A stretch of DNA of 64,000 nt from Candidatus Gastranaerophilales bacterium (GTDB taxonomy: Bacteria > Cyanobacteriota > Vampirovibrionia > Gastranaerophilales > Gastranaerophilaceae): assembly GCA_944323925.1 (NCBI GenBank), contig CALUUI010000001.1, forward strand, positions 1-64,000, given 5' to 3'. Shown in pieces: positions 44,145 to 55,728 of the stretch. Each line of letters starts with the position of its first letter. Position 1 is the stretch's first letter. The notes under the pieces were generated by a model, which did no database searches, was not told where the DNA came from, and worked only from the letters and a program-made list of their open reading frames with translations. Both the position numbers and the translations under genes were made by a program.

Positions 44145-44259
44145 TATTTTATGATTTTACGACAAAAAATTTTTTTTTGATACTTTATTCATAAACGTAT
44201 TTATGCTATGATTTTATAAAATAGCTATGTGAGTAAGATTATTGTATAAATATTATTCA

Positions 44260-46167
44260 ATGAGAGAATTATTTGTAATATCTGGAATTATATTATTGGC
44301 GGCGTTGCCGGTATTTTCTGCTGAAAACATGAGTACAGTGGACACGTCGGATTTGTATAATACAGGAACAATTAATATAGATGCCCCGGTTCAACCTGTT
44401 GAATTTAATACGGTTTACATCAAAGATATAGAAATATTGGGCTCAAACATCATCCGTCCTGAGAATATAAAAAATGTAATGCAGTTAAAAAAGGGTGATG
44501 TATATGACGAGGAATTATTGCAGCAGGATTTGTCTAAAATATTTAATATGGGATATTTTACAGACAATATGAAAGCAATTCCTATTCGTTCTGCGGATGA
44601 TACGGTTACGCTAAAAATTCTATTGGAGGAAAATATTCCTGTTACTGATTTTACAATAGAGGGGAACACAGTTGTTTCTACAGAAGAATTAATGCCGTAT
44701 TTATTGCCATTAAAGGGTAAACCTCAAAATATTACAACAATTAATGAAGCAATTGAAAAAATAAACGATAAATATTATTCAAAAGGTTATATTTTAGCTC
44801 GTATAGATTCTTTCTATGATGATCCTGATGGAGTTTTGAATTTAAGAATAAACGAAGGTCGAATCAACAAAATAATGATTGTTGGTAACGAGAAAACAAA
44901 GGATTATGTTGTAGAAAGAAATATAATGACCGAACCGGGTACTGTTTATAATGAAAATTTGGTAAAACAGGATTTGGTAAAATTGTACTCTACTCAGTCA
45001 TTTAAAGATGTTAATCGTCAAGTAGATGTAAGTGAAGAGAATCCTGATTTATATGATGTAACAATTGTATTGAAGGAACAAAGAACCGCATCAGTATCCG
45101 TTGGTGGCGGTTTGGATTCTGTTACCGGTGTTTTTGGTTCTCTTGGTATTGCGGATAATAACTTTAGGGGATTAAATCAAAGAGTATCTTTGTCAGGTAT
45201 GATCGGTACAGGTGTACTGATGAGTGATGCATCAATAAAGGATCATATGAATTTCCAAGCCGAATTAAGCTTCTTTGAGCCATATTTCTTAAATGCAGAT
45301 ACTTCTTTGTTGAGCCGTTTGTATTTTAGAGATTTAGGTAGTTATCAAGTTCCGTTGGCTATTGAACAGAGAGTTGGTGTTGAGGCAACTGCGTATCACA
45401 GACTGAAGTTTAATGAGCATTTACAAAGTACGTTTTCTTTAGGTATTGAAAATATCAGTTTAAAAGAAGGTGCTGCAGATCAAGTTGCATCTTTGTATGC
45501 CGCAAATCACATACCAATATCACGTCGTGCGGAAGAATTAGCAGATGGTGCATTCTTTAATATTACACCGGGACTTATTTACGATTCTCGTGATACTAAT
45601 ATGAACCCTCGAAATGGTGTTTTAGCATCAATAAGATTTGAAGAAGCTCTTGGTTTAACAGATTTTGCTAAAACAAATGGCCGATTGTCAGGTATGGCGA
45701 AGAAATATATTCCTATACTTAAAAAGTCTGCATTATCATTTACTGCGAGAGGTGGTATAAAAATCCACGGAGACGAAATGCCTGAAGTTATGGCATATAA
45801 ACTTGGCGGACCATACTCAATTAGAGGTTTCAAAATTAACGGAGTTGGTACAGGTGAATCTTACATTATGGGTTCTGTTGAGTTGACAACGCCTATTCCG
45901 TTATTAGACAGGCTTAAATTTAAGTTCTTTGATAATATAAGACTTGCATTCTTTGTTGATGCAGGTAAAATATTCGATCCGACAATTGCTTCTGCGTTGT
46001 ATGATAGACCCTTATATGCAATTACAGCAGGTGTAGGTTTGAAGGTTTATGTTCCGGGTGTTGGTCCAATGTCTATCGATTATGGTATACCGCTTACCAA
46101 TTCCGGAGAGTACGGTTCGCCTAACGGTTACTTCACTTTTGGTGTAGGCGATATGATGTATTACTAA
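44260..46167 (+). CDS. bamA: Outer membrane assembly protein BamA/Omp85 with three POTRA domains
   Basis: Omp85 inserts beta-barrels into the outer membrane. After a signal peptide (to VFSA, about 21-24) the protein has three POTRA domains, starting at about VYIKDIEILGSN, VTDFTIEGNT and INKIMIVGNEKT, then the 16-strand barrel beginning SVSVGGGLDS and containing the lid-lock motif GPYSIRGF and a terminal YFTFGVGDMMYY. Proteobacterial BamA has five POTRAs; cyanobacterial and chloroplast Omp85 have three. A TTG start six codons earlier is possible; neither start has a clear ribosome binding site. ompH follows 15 bases downstream. Confidence 0.95.
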   Translation: MRELFVISGIILLAALPVFSAENMSTVDTSDLYNTGTINIDAPVQPVEFNTVYIKDIEILGSNIIRPENIKNVMQLKKGDVYDEELLQQDLSKIFNMGYFTDNMKAIPIRSADDTVTLKILLEENIPVTDFTIEGNTVVSTEELMPYLLPLKGKPQNITTINEAIEKINDKYYSKGYILARIDSFYDDPDGVLNLRINEGRINKIMIVGNEKTKDYVVERNIMTEPGTVYNENLVKQDLVKLYSTQSFKDVNRQVDVSEENPDLYDVTIVLKEQRTASVSVGGGLDSVTGVFGSLGIADNNFRGLNQRVSLSGMIGTGVLMSDASIKDHMNFQAELSFFEPYFLNADTSLLSRLYFRDLGSYQVPLAIEQRVGVEATAYHRLKFNEHLQSTFSLGIENISLKEGAADQVASLYAANHIPISRRAEELADGAFFNITPGLIYDSRDTNMNPRNGVLASIRFEEALGLTDFAKTNGRLSGMAKKYIPILKKSALSFTARGGIKIHGDEMPEVMAYKLGGPYSIRGFKINGVGTGESYIMGSVELTTPIPLLDRLKFKFFDNIRLAFFVDAGKIFDPTIASALYDRPLYAITAGVGLKVYVPGVGPMSIDYGIPLTNSGEYGSPNGYFTFGVGDMMYY

Positions 46168-46182
46168 TCTATGGAGGTTTTT

Positions 46183-46632
46183 ATGAATAAAACAAAATTG
46201 TTTGCAGTTCTTTCAATGATTGCACTTTTGGCAGCGCCAGCTTTTGCTGATGGGCTTGGGTATATTAATTATGAAAAAGTTCTTTCTAATTATGATGCTG
46301 CAAAATCGGTTGCAAAAGAATTAGATGCTAAAGGTATGGAATTGCAACAATATCTTATGGATAAGGAAAAAGAATTCAAATCTATCGATACTCCTGTAAA
46401 AAAACAAGCATTCAAGGATAAAATTGCTAATGAATATAAAGCAAAAGAAGAAGCCTATATAAAATATCGTTTAAATAAAGAAAAAGAAATTTTTACAAAG
46501 GTTCAAAATACGGCAAAAATCATTATGGCAGAACAAAAATTAGATGCAGTAGTAGATATAAAGGCTGTATTCTGTGGTGGTGTTGATATAACAGATATTG
46601 TTATTGACAGATTAAAAGGAATTAAAAACTAG
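46183..46632 (+). CDS. ompH: OmpH/Skp-family periplasmic chaperone
   Basis: Skp holds unfolded outer-membrane proteins in the periplasm for BamA. The 149-residue protein has a cleavable signal (LFAVLSMIALLAAPAFA), the family motif GLGYINYEKVLSNYDAAK and a long Lys/Glu-rich pair of helices. TGGAGG precedes the ATG. The bamA-ompH order is a common operon. Confidence 0.92.
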   Translation: MNKTKLFAVLSMIALLAAPAFADGLGYINYEKVLSNYDAAKSVAKELDAKGMELQQYLMDKEKEFKSIDTPVKKQAFKDKIANEYKAKEEAYIKYRLNKEKEIFTKVQNTAKIIMAEQKLDAVVDIKAVFCGGVDITDIVIDRLKGIKN

Positions 46633-47939
46633 TGCGAATAGTAGATATTATAGAGAAGAAAAAACAAGGCAAAGAACATACAAAAGAGGAAATAGATTTT
46701 CTTATTAGTTCATTGATGGATGGTACTGCCGCAGATTACCAAATAAGTGCTTGGTTGATGGCTGTTTATTTTAAAGGTATGTCTGATGATGAAACGGCAT
46801 ATTTGACAGATGCGCTTGTTCGCTCTGGAGAAGTAATTGATTTGGAACAGCTTGCATCGTCGGTTGTAGATAAACATTCAACCGGTGGAGTTGGTGACAA
46901 GGTTACGATTACTTTAATTCCGCTATTAGCAGCTTGCGGAATTCCAGTTGCTAAGTTATCAGGAAGAGGGTTAGGACATACTGGTGGAACTATTGATAAG
47001 TTAGAGTCAATCCCCGGGTTCAATACTAATATGTCTATTCCTGATATGATAGCTCAGGTTAAGAAAATCGGAGTTGCTATAGGTGCTCAAACTCAAAAAT
47101 TGACACCTGCTGATGGTAAACTATATGCCTTGAGGGATGTTACAGCGACAGTTGATAGCAGACCGTTGATTGCTTCTTCTGTTGTATCTAAGAAAATCGC
47201 ATCTGGTGCTGATAATATTATTTTAGATGTTAAATATGGTTCAGGGGCTTTTATGAAAACGCCTGAGGATGCTGTTAAATTATCTGAAATAATGGTTAAA
47301 ATAGGTAAGAAACTGAATAAAAATATTACTGCTGTTATTACATCTATGGATGAACCATTGGGAAGGGCTGTCGGTAATTCTCTTGAGATTATTGAAGCAA
47401 TTGAATTCTTGAAAGGGAATATTAAAGAGGGGGATATAGCAGAGCTTACTTATGATTTTGCAGCATTGGCGCTTGTTCAGATGAAAAAATCTGATAATAT
47501 TGATGAGGCAAGAAAAATAATTAATGATGCTATAGAATCAGGACGTGCTCTTGAAAAATTCAGAGAGCTTATTATCACTCAAGGCGGGGATGCTTCAGTT
47601 TTAGATGATTACTCTAAATTCCCGCAAGTTAAATATATTGTAGAGCTCAAGTCTGGCGAATCAGGATTTGTACATAGAATTGATGCTTTAAAAATTGCAT
47701 ATGGTTGTAAACTTTTAGGGGCTGGTAGAGAAAAGAAAACTGATAGTATTGATTATGGTGTAGGTGTATTTCTAAATAAGAAATCCGGTGAATATGTAAA
47801 TAAAGGTGATGTAATTTGTACAATTTATTCTAATGATGAAGATAAAACAAATGCTGCTTTAGAGTATTGTAAAGATGCGTTTGTGTTATCAGAATCAAAA
47901 TATGTGGAATATAATTTAATATATAAGATTATAAGATAA
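46632..47939 (+). CDS. pdp: Pyrimidine-nucleoside / thymidine phosphorylase
   Basis: Splits (deoxy)uridine or thymidine with phosphate to base and sugar 1-phosphate in pyrimidine salvage. The 435-residue protein has the family start RIVDIIEKK-x-G-x-x-HTKEEI, the phosphate-binding DKHSTGGVGDK and SGRGLGHTGGTIDKLESI. GTG start overlaps the ompH stop (TAGTG). Whether it is specific for thymidine (DeoA) or broad (Pdp) cannot be told. Confidence 0.95.
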   Translation: MRIVDIIEKKKQGKEHTKEEIDFLISSLMDGTAADYQISAWLMAVYFKGMSDDETAYLTDALVRSGEVIDLEQLASSVVDKHSTGGVGDKVTITLIPLLAACGIPVAKLSGRGLGHTGGTIDKLESIPGFNTNMSIPDMIAQVKKIGVAIGAQTQKLTPADGKLYALRDVTATVDSRPLIASSVVSKKIASGADNIILDVKYGSGAFMKTPEDAVKLSEIMVKIGKKLNKNITAVITSMDEPLGRAVGNSLEIIEAIEFLKGNIKEGDIAELTYDFAALALVQMKKSDNIDEARKIINDAIESGRALEKFRELIITQGGDASVLDDYSKFPQVKYIVELKSGESGFVHRIDALKIAYGCKLLGAGREKKTDSIDYGVGVFLNKKSGEYVNKGDVICTIYSNDEDKTNAALEYCKDAFVLSESKYVEYNLIYKIIR

Positions 47940-47954
47940 AGGCAAAGACATCTG

Positions 47955-49421
47955 ATGTTTAAACAAAAAATGCAATATGTAATAAAATCAGCTCTAATGG
48001 ATGAAAGACAGGAGCTTGAGGATTTACTCAATGAAATGTCGAATTCCGGTTGGGATTTGTATGGCATGCATGAAGTTGAAAGAAAAGATGGAATATATTT
48101 TGATTGTATATTTGTGCGCCAAAAAGATGAAGAAGAAAAACAAGAATTTGATGATGTCGTTAAGATAAAAAGTTTCAAAAATCAGATGGAAAAAATGTTT
48201 GCATCATCTCTATCTCCTTATGCAACCTGTAAGGAATTGCAAATTAAAATAAGAGATCAAAAGGAGATTATTTCTAAGATTAAATATCAGTTGGAAAATG
48301 ATGCTTTAACAATTAAAGAAAAAGAGTTATTAAATAAGCAGCTTTCTGATGAGATAAACAGATTTGATTCCCTAAAAGCATCGTTGGTAAAAGAGATTTC
48401 TCCTGATAGTATGTATTCATCTTTAGCTAAAGATAAATATGTAATAAATTTATCCGATGAATTGATTGAGACAGTTATAAATGATGTAGATGATAATTTG
48501 TTGGCAGAAACAGTAAAGGTTCGTCAAAGATTAGCTGATACGTTAGGGTATGTTATCCCAAATATTGTTTTTTCAAACGAAGAAGTTCTTGATGATAACG
48601 AGTTTAATATCGTTTTACACGGTATTGAGCTTATAAAATGTTGCGTTTTCCCTGGTAAAGTTTGTATTTTTAAAGATGAACTTGATGGGTATAAAAAGAA
48701 AAAAGATGATATTCATACCAAGGATTTTATCACAGGAAAAGATATATTCTGGATTGATGAAGAAAAAGCTCGTGATTTTTGGGTAAATAAAATTACTCCT
48801 GTTCAATTTATTGCAAGAGCTTTAGAGTTTGTTTCTGTTAAAAATGTTGATGAAATCTTGGATTATAATGCGGTAAATAAATATATGGAAATTGTGCAGG
48901 AGCATAATTCTTTCTTAATAAATAATATTTATCCTGATTATATTTCAGCTGCTGAAATAAAGTATATTTTGGCATCTCTAATCAGAGAAAAAGTTTCTGT
49001 GAAAGATATAGTTTATATTTTTGAAAAGATTAATGATTTTTCGTCAGAAGAATCAAAAGATCATTTGATAGAAAAATTGCGTTTATCTATGAGTAAGCAG
49101 ATTTTAAAAGATATTCAAGTTGGTGAAAGTATTAAAGCTATTGAATTATCATCAAAGACAATAGAAAACTTCTTTGAATCATCATTGTGCGCAGAAGATG
49201 AGGGAGTCGTAAAGATTGATGGCGCAATTGTAGAAAAAATGGTTAAAAAGATTAAAAAACTTGCCGCTGAAGCCAATGTAGATGAGATTATATTATTGGC
49301 TCCTTATGAGATAAGACACATGACTTTTTTAATATTCTCGGAATTTATTAATAATATGAGAGTTATTGCATTTGAAGAGTTGGGACAAAATACCGAGATT
49401 GAGACTATTGGTGAGGTTTAG
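47955..49421 (+). CDS. Soluble FlhA-C-like protein fused to a DUF4177-like domain
   Basis: The 488-residue protein has no membrane segment. Residues 5-55 look like a DUF4177 domain (LEDLLNEMSNSGWDLYGMHE ... CIFVRQK). A coiled coil follows (about 75-155). Residues from about 165 to the end follow the cytoplasmic domain of the flagellar/type III export gate protein FlhA: VRQRLADTLGYVIPNIVF, FNIVLHGIEL, WVNKITPVQFIARALEF, AEIKYILASLIREKVSVKDIVYIFEKI, LRLSMSKQI and the closing FEELGQNTEIETIGEV. In FlhA this part docks chaperone-substrate complexes and is attached to eight membrane helices, absent here. It may be an export regulator or a repurposed docking platform. The assignment is from pattern matching by eye. 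Confidence 0.7.
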   Translation: MFKQKMQYVIKSALMDERQELEDLLNEMSNSGWDLYGMHEVERKDGIYFDCIFVRQKDEEEKQEFDDVVKIKSFKNQMEKMFASSLSPYATCKELQIKIRDQKEIISKIKYQLENDALTIKEKELLNKQLSDEINRFDSLKASLVKEISPDSMYSSLAKDKYVINLSDELIETVINDVDDNLLAETVKVRQRLADTLGYVIPNIVFSNEEVLDDNEFNIVLHGIELIKCCVFPGKVCIFKDELDGYKKKKDDIHTKDFITGKDIFWIDEEKARDFWVNKITPVQFIARALEFVSVKNVDEILDYNAVNKYMEIVQEHNSFLINNIYPDYISAAEIKYILASLIREKVSVKDIVYIFEKINDFSSEESKDHLIEKLRLSMSKQILKDIQVGESIKAIELSSKTIENFFESSLCAEDEGVVKIDGAIVEKMVKKIKKLAAEANVDEIILLAPYEIRHMTFLIFSEFINNMRVIAFEELGQNTEIETIGEV

Positions 49422-54149: not shown

Positions 54150-54533
54150 ATGAGGATTTGTCCAATTCAGATTCAAAATTATTATCAAAGACAAAATTAT
54201 TACAAATGTGATAACATTATGGCATCAGAGAAGTCTTTATTTGTAAATGAAAGTATAGCGCAGCCATCTTTTAAAAATGATGCAGGAGCATTAAAAGGAA
54301 TGATTAAAGGAGGACTTATAGGTGCTGCGGTTGCTGGTGCTATAGTTTTGACCGGCGGACTTGGAATTGCAGCCTTAGGTGCTACAGGTGCATTTGTAGG
54401 TGGGCTTGCTGGAGTTGGTGCTAATATTGGTGGTATTATTGGATCAAAGAATGATAGTGATGACATTAGTGATGATATAAAACGTTTTTGTAATAAATTT
54501 AAAGATAAAATAAAGGGTAGTGATAATAAATAG
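54150..54533 (+). CDS. Glycine-zipper membrane protein
   Basis: The 127-residue protein has a polar N-terminal half and a 60-residue glycine/alanine-rich hydrophobic stretch with repeated small-xxx-small spacing (GMIKGGLIGAAVAGAIV; GGLAGVGANIGGIIG), able to form two tightly packed membrane helices, followed by an acidic/basic tail. AAGGGG precedes the ATG. Such glycine-zipper domains occur in pore-forming, bacteriocin-like and outer-membrane proteins. It lies 28 bases upstream of the AAA+ gene on the same strand and is probably its functional partner. No family name can be given. Confidence 0.65.
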   Translation: MRICPIQIQNYYQRQNYYKCDNIMASEKSLFVNESIAQPSFKNDAGALKGMIKGGLIGAAVAGAIVLTGGLGIAALGATGAFVGGLAGVGANIGGIIGSKNDSDDISDDIKRFCNKFKDKIKGSDNK

Positions 54534-54561: not shown

Positions 54562-55728
54562 ATGAAAGTAAATATAATCTCCAACACAAACATTCATAGA
54601 AATAATTTAAATTTTAAGAGTACAAACAGAACAGGAGAAGAAGTTCCGTCTTATTTGATTTTTAATGATCGTCTGAAGCAGCTTAAAACAGATGAAGATT
54701 ATAAAAAAATGCAGTTAGATCAGAATGAAAGAATGATTCTGGTCGGGGCGTTGCAGTTTTTGCTATTAGTTGCTTGCGCAGTAAAATATTTGTTTAATAC
54801 AACATCCGGGAAACGGGGCAATGCTCTTGATACGTCAACTTATAAGCCTTTGGTACGCCAGTTTGAATCTTTAAAGGAAAATGAACTTATTCCTACTGTT
54901 GAGACTTGTAAAAGTATAAATAAGGATTTAAAAGACTTGTTGATGTTGAAACTTAGTCTATCAAAACAAAGCGTGAAATCAAATTCCCCGCAAGATGAAG
55001 CAGGCAGGATGCTATTGTATGGACCTGCAGGCGTTGGAAAATCGTTTTTTGCAAAGATTTATGCAAAATCTTTAGATGCGGAATATTTGGAGGTATTGTA
55101 TTCGGATTTTAATTCAAAGTGGGTTGGTGAAGGCGTTGAAAACTTAAAAGAAATTTTTGAACAGATTTTAGCTGTCGGAAAAAATACCCCTGAGAAAAAG
55201 TATGTAGTTGTTTTTAACGAGGTGGATACGCTTGTTTTGCCAATGGAAAAGCTAGCGAAAGATGTTTCCTCAGGTCATTATATCAGCAAAATTGAAGAGC
55301 GCTCTGTCGTTTTGAATTACTTGGAACGGCTAAAAGAACAGGCACCTAATGTTACGGTAATTGGTACGACAAATGTTTCACCTAAAGGTAACTCACTGGA
55401 TAAAGCGGCAATGAGCAGATTCCAGAATATTATTGAAATCCCTTATCCTGACAGAGATTGTCTGTTTGAAGCAATTAAGTCTTATTTAAGGCGAATGAAA
55501 ATAAATGATGATTTTATAAATACAAATGAAGTAGAAATAAAAGAGTTAGCAAGTAAATTAGAGGACAGAAAATTTTCATTCAGAAATCTTGAAAATATGG
55601 TTAAGAAGTCTATGGATTATTATAGACAGGATATTTATCATGGAAAAGGTGCTGAGTTTAAAATGGAGTATCTTAAAAAAGGTGAAAACTCTGTTAAGCT
55701 TTCTGAGGGAGAATTGGATATTCCATAA
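54562..55728 (+). CDS. Membrane-anchored AAA+ ATPase with Asn-Glu Walker B
   Basis: The 388-residue protein has a polar N-terminal tag (MKVNIISNTNIHRNNLNFKS), one membrane helix (about 58-78) and a single classical AAA domain: Walker A GPAGVGKSF (154-162), pore-loop segment SKWVGEG (about 185-191, as in the spastin/Vps4 group), Walker B VVVFNEVD (N219-E220 instead of Asp-Glu), sensor-1 VIGTTN (about 267) and AAMSRF. There is no protease domain, so it is not FtsH. The catalytic glutamate is kept but the magnesium-coordinating aspartate is asparagine, which may slow ATP turnover. It probably remodels or extracts membrane proteins; the upstream glycine-zipper protein is the obvious candidate client. 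Confidence 0.8.
   Translation: MKVNIISNTNIHRNNLNFKSTNRTGEEVPSYLIFNDRLKQLKTDEDYKKMQLDQNERMILVGALQFLLLVACAVKYLFNTTSGKRGNALDTSTYKPLVRQFESLKENELIPTVETCKSINKDLKDLLMLKLSLSKQSVKSNSPQDEAGRMLLYGPAGVGKSFFAKIYAKSLDAEYLEVLYSDFNSKWVGEGVENLKEIFEQILAVGKNTPEKKYVVVFNEVDTLVLPMEKLAKDVSSGHYISKIEERSVVLNYLERLKEQAPNVTVIGTTNVSPKGNSLDKAAMSRFQNIIEIPYPDRDCLFEAIKSYLRRMKINDDFINTNEVEIKELASKLEDRKFSFRNLENMVKKSMDYYRQDIYHGKGAEFKMEYLKKGENSVKLSEGELDIP

Follow-up and report, generated by a model that had tools for sequence, protein, structure and literature searches.

Nearly all sampled bacteria of the order Candidatus Gastranaerophilales carry a gene for a soluble, free-standing version of the cytoplasmic ring domain found in the export gate protein FlhA. 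The gene was found in a window of 64,000 nucleotides of DNA from one such bacterium, and it is kept under strong selection across the order, also in genomes that have no flagellum. The encoded protein (free FlhA-C) has kept the subdomains that form rings in its relatives, and its chaperone-binding dimple is altered. The explanation preferred here, still a tentative one, is that free FlhA-C serves a second, filament-less export apparatus (system 2) as a ring-competent accessory subunit or as a regulator, and does not compete for chaperone docking.

The protein and its predicted fold

The open reading frame at 47955..49421 on the forward strand is a real gene. It has an ATG start and encodes a soluble FlhA-C protein of 488 aa without a membrane domain. 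The Pfam profile FHIPEP matched residues 147-480 along profile positions 321-656 of 657 (2e-45) and scored 156, where the cut-off is 29 bits. The profile gave no match before position 321, and the eight-helix membrane domain is therefore absent. The NCBIfam FlhA profile was likewise matched by its C-terminal half only, and a phmmer search with the protein retrieved solved FlhA-C and SctV-C structures (3mix, 6e-19). In an AlphaFold2 model computed from 89 orthologues (pLDDT 85), a beta-alpha-beta-beta domain (residues 6-56) is followed by a disordered stretch, a helix hairpin (88-113/120-148) and the four FlhA-C subdomains. The best solved match of the model is FlhA-C 7amy (Z 30.0, 337 residues, rmsd 2.9). 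Profile and structure matches place subdomains D1-D4 at residues 159-488 (48429..49418, forward strand). The initial annotation had followed the C-terminal part along the FlhA/SctV cytoplasmic domain and had reported the membrane half as missing; the profile and the structural comparison bear out both statements.

Residues 1-146 consist of a soluble domain, a disordered stretch and the hairpin, as judged from profile searches and the model. A DUF4177-like domain had been proposed for residues 1-60 (47955..48134, forward strand; AlphaFold2 pLDDT 83). The window's own copy matches PF13783 only weakly (E 0.044; 14.4 bits against a curated cut-off of 25 bits), and 67 of the 72 orthologous N-terminal domains match it, the best at 4e-5. 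Because of these orthologue matches and the beta-alpha-beta-beta model, "DUF4177-like" appears to be a fair label. A Foldseek comparison of this domain with the PDB returned nothing at E<=0.001, the best hits being acetyltransferases at 0.02, and a PDB profile search with it gave no match. Between the domains a coiled coil had been suggested. Residues 88-148 (48216..48398, forward strand) are instead predicted to fold as an antiparallel hairpin with helices at 88-113 and 120-148. In the alignment, the second helix overlaps the stretch that corresponds to the linker of FlhA2.

Ancestry, the second export apparatus and the ring-forming half

The host genome (1.94 Mb, 42 contigs, 99.9% complete) carries three FHIPEP genes. 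The flagellar FlhA (contig C10) adjoins flhB-fliR-fliQ-fliP. A second full-length FlhA, FlhA2 (contig C13), is a full 699-aa gate encoded in the cluster fliE-fliF-(FliG_N-like, 341 aa)-fliH-flhA2. The third gene is that of free FlhA-C, which in phmmer searches is closer to FlhA2 (e-40) than to the flagellar FlhA1 (e-13). A careful tree places the free proteins in one clade (100/100) on the FlhA2 side, and a second, quick tree with more rows places them inside the FlhA2 group of the class; the exact branching point is left open because the branch is long. The alignment with FlhA2 runs on through the linker (NPN[RK]MYERL in FlhA2, SPDxMY in the free protein), and FlhA2 evolves several times more slowly than its free relative. 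Sequence comparison thus identifies free FlhA-C as a soluble paralogue of the FlhA2 cytoplasmic ring domain.

In other genomes of the order, the flhA2 cluster also includes rod genes of the FlgB, FlgC and FlgG types, a lytic transglycosylase gene and FliI. Elsewhere in genomes of the order, a SctQ-like gene with two SpoA occurs with fliO-fliP-fliQ-fliR, flhB2 lies beside a sigma factor gene, and a weak FliJ-like gene lies beside a FlgE/F/G-like gene. The FliJ-like assignment in the host genome comes from a weak match (0.03) and from position. These loci (L034:4794-10750 on contig C13 of the host genome, G000; L082; L083; L039:15224-18728; L225:11157-12924) make up system 2, which practically all genomes sampled from the order contain. 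System 2 has rod and hook-like proteins and, as far as seen, a FliG-like protein without the motor domain and the SctQ-like protein with its two SpoA. It is a second, filament-less type III-like apparatus across the order, and it stands without a flagellum because nine genomes without flagellin and hook (G007, G012, G015, G019, G052, G077, G079, G080 and G082) have just one FliP, which is the short form typical of system 2. Flagellin and an orthologue of the flagellar hook were absent from all nine, and G007 and G052 gave only weak matches to other rod/hook-type ORFs. In Melainabacteria, 13 shared "flagellum" genes have been reported, two flhA among them, and MEL.A1 was described as having no filament, cap, junction or L/P rings (Di Rienzi et al., 2013; PMC3787301). 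The free FlhA-C gene may be the second of these flhA genes, and what looked like a reduced flagellum may have been system 2. Both the free gene and system 2 are near-universal in the order. Because system 2 was missing from none of the order's genomes that were sampled, their co-occurrence cannot prove a link; in the related families f9 and f14, a system 2-like FlhA occurs without the free gene.

Which parts of the ring domain were kept was read from an alignment of 89 free orthologues and nine FlhA2 proteins, with FlhA residues numbered by the E. coli protein and with the D1-D4 boundaries of the Salmonella structure. The free proteins share with the FlhA2 consensus an identity of 0.36 across D1+D3 versus 0.19 across D2+D4, a ratio of 1.91 (range 1.36-2.72, n=89). 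The same ratio is 1.00-1.29 in flagellar full-length FlhA of the class (n=13) and 1.19-1.58 in other full-length sets. The linker anchor SPDxMY (residues 149-158; 48399..48428, forward strand), the counterpart of the FlhA2 motif, keeps P150 in 88/89 and M153 in 80/89 orthologues, and the corresponding P and M are present in 9/9 FlhA2. R190 (48522..48524, forward strand), the equivalent of FlhA R391, is invariant (89/89 free proteins, 9/9 FlhA2 and R in E. coli). In SctV rings, contacts are made by subdomains 1 and 3 (PMC7584215). The rings of FlhA and SctV are stabilised by docking of each linker onto the adjacent subunit (PMC8213127).

The chaperone-binding dimple of FlhA comprises D456, F459 and T490 (PMC8166844). 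D456 is kept in 86/89 free orthologues. The position of F459 is occupied by T260 in the window protein (48732..48734, forward strand), with T in 64 and S in 18 of the 89, versus Y in eight and F in one FlhA2. At the position of T490 stands R288 (48816..48818, forward strand), with R in 49 and K in 11 of the 89, versus T in all nine FlhA2. Neither the GYXLI motif nor the FlhA linker residues E351/W354/D356 were conserved in the alignment of the 89 free orthologues. Since D1+D3 and the linker anchor are kept, the dimple is altered and the ring contacts of SctV and FlhA are known, free FlhA-C is predicted to be ring-competent and not chaperone-docking. An earlier suggestion, that it competes for export chaperones or delivers them through the usual docking site, is weakened by the same replacements.

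According to the preferred explanation, FlhA2 would have been duplicated, and the membrane half of the copy would then have been exchanged for the DUF4177-like domain and the helix hairpin. In this copy the ring-forming subdomains, D1+D3, would have been retained along with the linker anchor, and the peripheral docking half (D2+D4), including the dimple, remodelled. Most likely, free FlhA-C would join or cap the FlhA2 ring or form its own ring beneath it. In this position it would regulate or adapt export by system 2, and canonical chaperone-substrate complexes would not be recruited. Support for an accessory of the ring comes from the nine flagellin-less genomes, which have both the gene and the system 2-type FliP, and from a 593-aa paralogue in genus g14 (L230:6042-7823, L231:5633-7411, L245, L246). 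This fusion begins with the N-terminus of the FliG-like ring protein of system 2 (about 1e-11 in phmmer), which is followed by two TM helices and an FlhA-C without D2. At L230 and L231 the fusion gene adjoins genes resembling a histidine kinase and a response regulator.

A cytosolic sensor or decoy is a possible explanation, of lower probability than a ring accessory. Free FlhA-C would bind an export component away from the gate (a FliJ-like or FliH/FliI-like protein, or a substrate class) and would report or buffer its level, with the DUF4177 domain as output. We know of no output function for DUF4177. Such a role would suit a soluble protein with a new N-terminal domain and remodelled D2/D4, and sensing by a gate domain would also fit the HTH_17-FlhA-C proteins (HTH_17, 4e-13) of family f17. 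These were found in two genomes of one genus (L243:5315-6556, L241:4765-6018), and at L243 (G148) the gene is divergent from fliP-fliQ-fliR-flhB across a 150-bp gap. However, the HTH protein is no orthologue of free FlhA-C, and the strongest conservation of the latter lies in the ring-forming subdomains, not in the peripheral binding face.

The search of the phylum yielded further FlhA-C proteins without the FlhA membrane half. Genome G050 encodes a 296-aa linker-D1-D3 protein. Proteins of 400-622 aa in families f24 and f25 branch with other full-length FlhA and are therefore of separate origin. In G135, from another family of the class, a 289-aa FlhA-C-like ORF (L221:2998-3867) lies directly downstream of flhA2. 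Partial FHIPEP matches in G113 lie at contig ends; they were rejected as free FlhA-C and are probably one FlhA cut by assembly. No description of free FlhA-C or of these related proteins, including HTH_17-FlhA-C and the g14-type fusions, was found in the open-access papers searched. These searches covered FHIPEP paralogues as well as FlhA and type III secretion in Gastranaerophilales/Melainabacteria, and only the 2013 genome paper was relevant, which is a weak negative.

Gene neighbourhood and distribution

Just upstream of the free gene lie bamA and skp/ompH (44242..46632) and pdp, which encodes pyrimidine nucleoside phosphorylase (46632..47939), all on the forward strand. The adjacency to pdp and bamA had been described correctly. 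The pdp gene ends 15 nt before the open reading frame, and bamA-skp-pdp followed by the free gene is the arrangement of the window's genus. In other genera the gene is usually found near housekeeping genes (rplT, bamA-skp and others), with bamA and skp beside it in several (L040, L043, L107). It lies 7-10 kb from system 2 fliPQR in g10 and G041 (L039, L044, L056, L046), 0.8 kb from the flagellar flhA at L157, and, in one genus (G093/G098), immediately before the flagellar genes fliJ-fliK-flgD-flgE. This last cluster was ruled out as a link to system 2, as its type of FlgE is confined to flagellin-positive genomes. Synteny is sporadic only and was rejected as proof of partnership. Because the neighbours differ between genera, the partner of free FlhA-C is not settled by neighbourhood.

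Recruitment of the FlhA-C fold to a job unrelated to export, such as envelope biogenesis, is an unlikely explanation. The housekeeping character of most neighbours, the recurrence of the bamA-skp-flhAc linkage in several genera and the loss of the dimple and GYXLI would be in keeping with it. However, the neighbours vary between genera while the gene stays, the protein has retained an export gate's linker anchor and ring subdomains, and further FlhA-C paralogues of the phylum show links to export genes.

Unrelated proteins sharing the N-terminal pattern M[KR][IV]xx[IV]...F[KGS] are encoded in the window (54150-54533, 54562-55728) and at L036:17702, L039:3923, L040:11135, L042:7252 and L107:6292, and two pattern proteins adjoin the free FlhA-C gene. 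The pattern, which was picked after examples had been seen, occurs in 7/792 ORFs versus a shuffle mean of 0.44, and in 0/196 ORFs of other lineages. It could be an export or targeting signal. A toxin-antitoxin-like pair (116 aa, 106 aa) was found twice at L034 (596-1248 and 1817-2469), 1.2 kb apart and with the same predicted proteins.

Orthologues of free FlhA-C were found in 105/110 sampled genomes of the order, which comprise 84/88 genomes of the window's family and 21/22 of the order's other families. No orthologue was found among the 36 sampled genomes of the class outside the order, 17 of which were examined further. Within the window's genus, where computable, dN/dS is 0.02-0.06, and the gene is under strong purifying selection.

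From fliL, fliM, fliN and a Maf-like gene, all of which are seen in the window, the initial annotation had concluded that the host probably has flagella. A link of the free gene to the flagellum through fliL, fliM and fliN is not supported when its presence is compared with that of flagellar genes: the gene is kept in 9/9 tested genomes that have no flagellin and only one FliP, and it is independent of flagella. That free FlhA-C is a component of the flagellar export apparatus is highly improbable. The gene does adjoin fliJ-fliK-flgD-flgE in one genus and lies near the flagellar flhA once, but this reading is contradicted by its grouping with FlhA2 and, barring a hidden flagellum there, by the genomes without flagellin and hook and with one FliP. 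A fragment or decaying copy of flhA, which the missing membrane half might suggest, has a negligible probability: the genome has intact full-length FlhA genes at other loci, the 89 aligned orthologues share one architecture at identities as low as 31%, and the dN/dS values are low; the two intact copies also rule out one half of a split flhA. The order-wide distribution, the low dN/dS and the presence in the nine flagellin-less genomes together rule out a fragment and a flagellar part alike.

Significance and relation to known systems

The choice of cargo in type III export, and the timing of its release, are settled at FlhA-C. An order-wide soluble paralogue with the ring half kept and the chaperone site lost would be a case in nature in which assembly of the ring is uncoupled from docking of the cargo, and the early proposal of a new use of the FlhA-C fold is supported. 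The gene also indicates that common gut bacteria share a conserved export machine without a filament, which was read as a reduced flagellum in the 2013 genome paper. That it is kept under selection even without flagella suggests a dedicated helper of this second, little-studied machine. It is conceivable, if doubtful as a whole, that the gate's cytoplasmic ring domain is a free module that was duplicated several times into soluble regulators in the phylum's non-photosynthetic lineages. DUF4177-FlhA-C would then be a mixed-ring subunit or sensor reporting on the state of the filament-less machine, and HTH_17-FlhA-C a transcription factor with a gate-domain sensor.

Free FlhA-C shares with the FlhA/SctV cytoplasmic domain its four subdomains, its fold, the linker anchor region and the invariant R391 equivalent. 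It differs in having no membrane domain, F459/T490 dimple or GYXLI, and in the addition of the DUF4177-like domain and the hairpin. Its nearest relative is FlhA2, with homology extending through the linker; unlike the free protein, FlhA2 is a full gate with the dimple kept and slower evolution. The HTH_17-FlhA-C and helical-FlhA-C proteins of other families of the phylum are also FlhA-C without the FlhA membrane half, but they have other N-terminal domains, and at least the f24/f25 set has a separate origin. FlhX is a free-standing homologue of the FlhB C-terminal domain. The principle is shared with free FlhA-C, in that the cytoplasmic domain of one gate subunit has a soluble paralogue, but FlhX corresponds to FlhB, not FlhA, and has no added domain. 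FlhX is counted among the flagellar export proteins (PMC9321776, PMC10746217).
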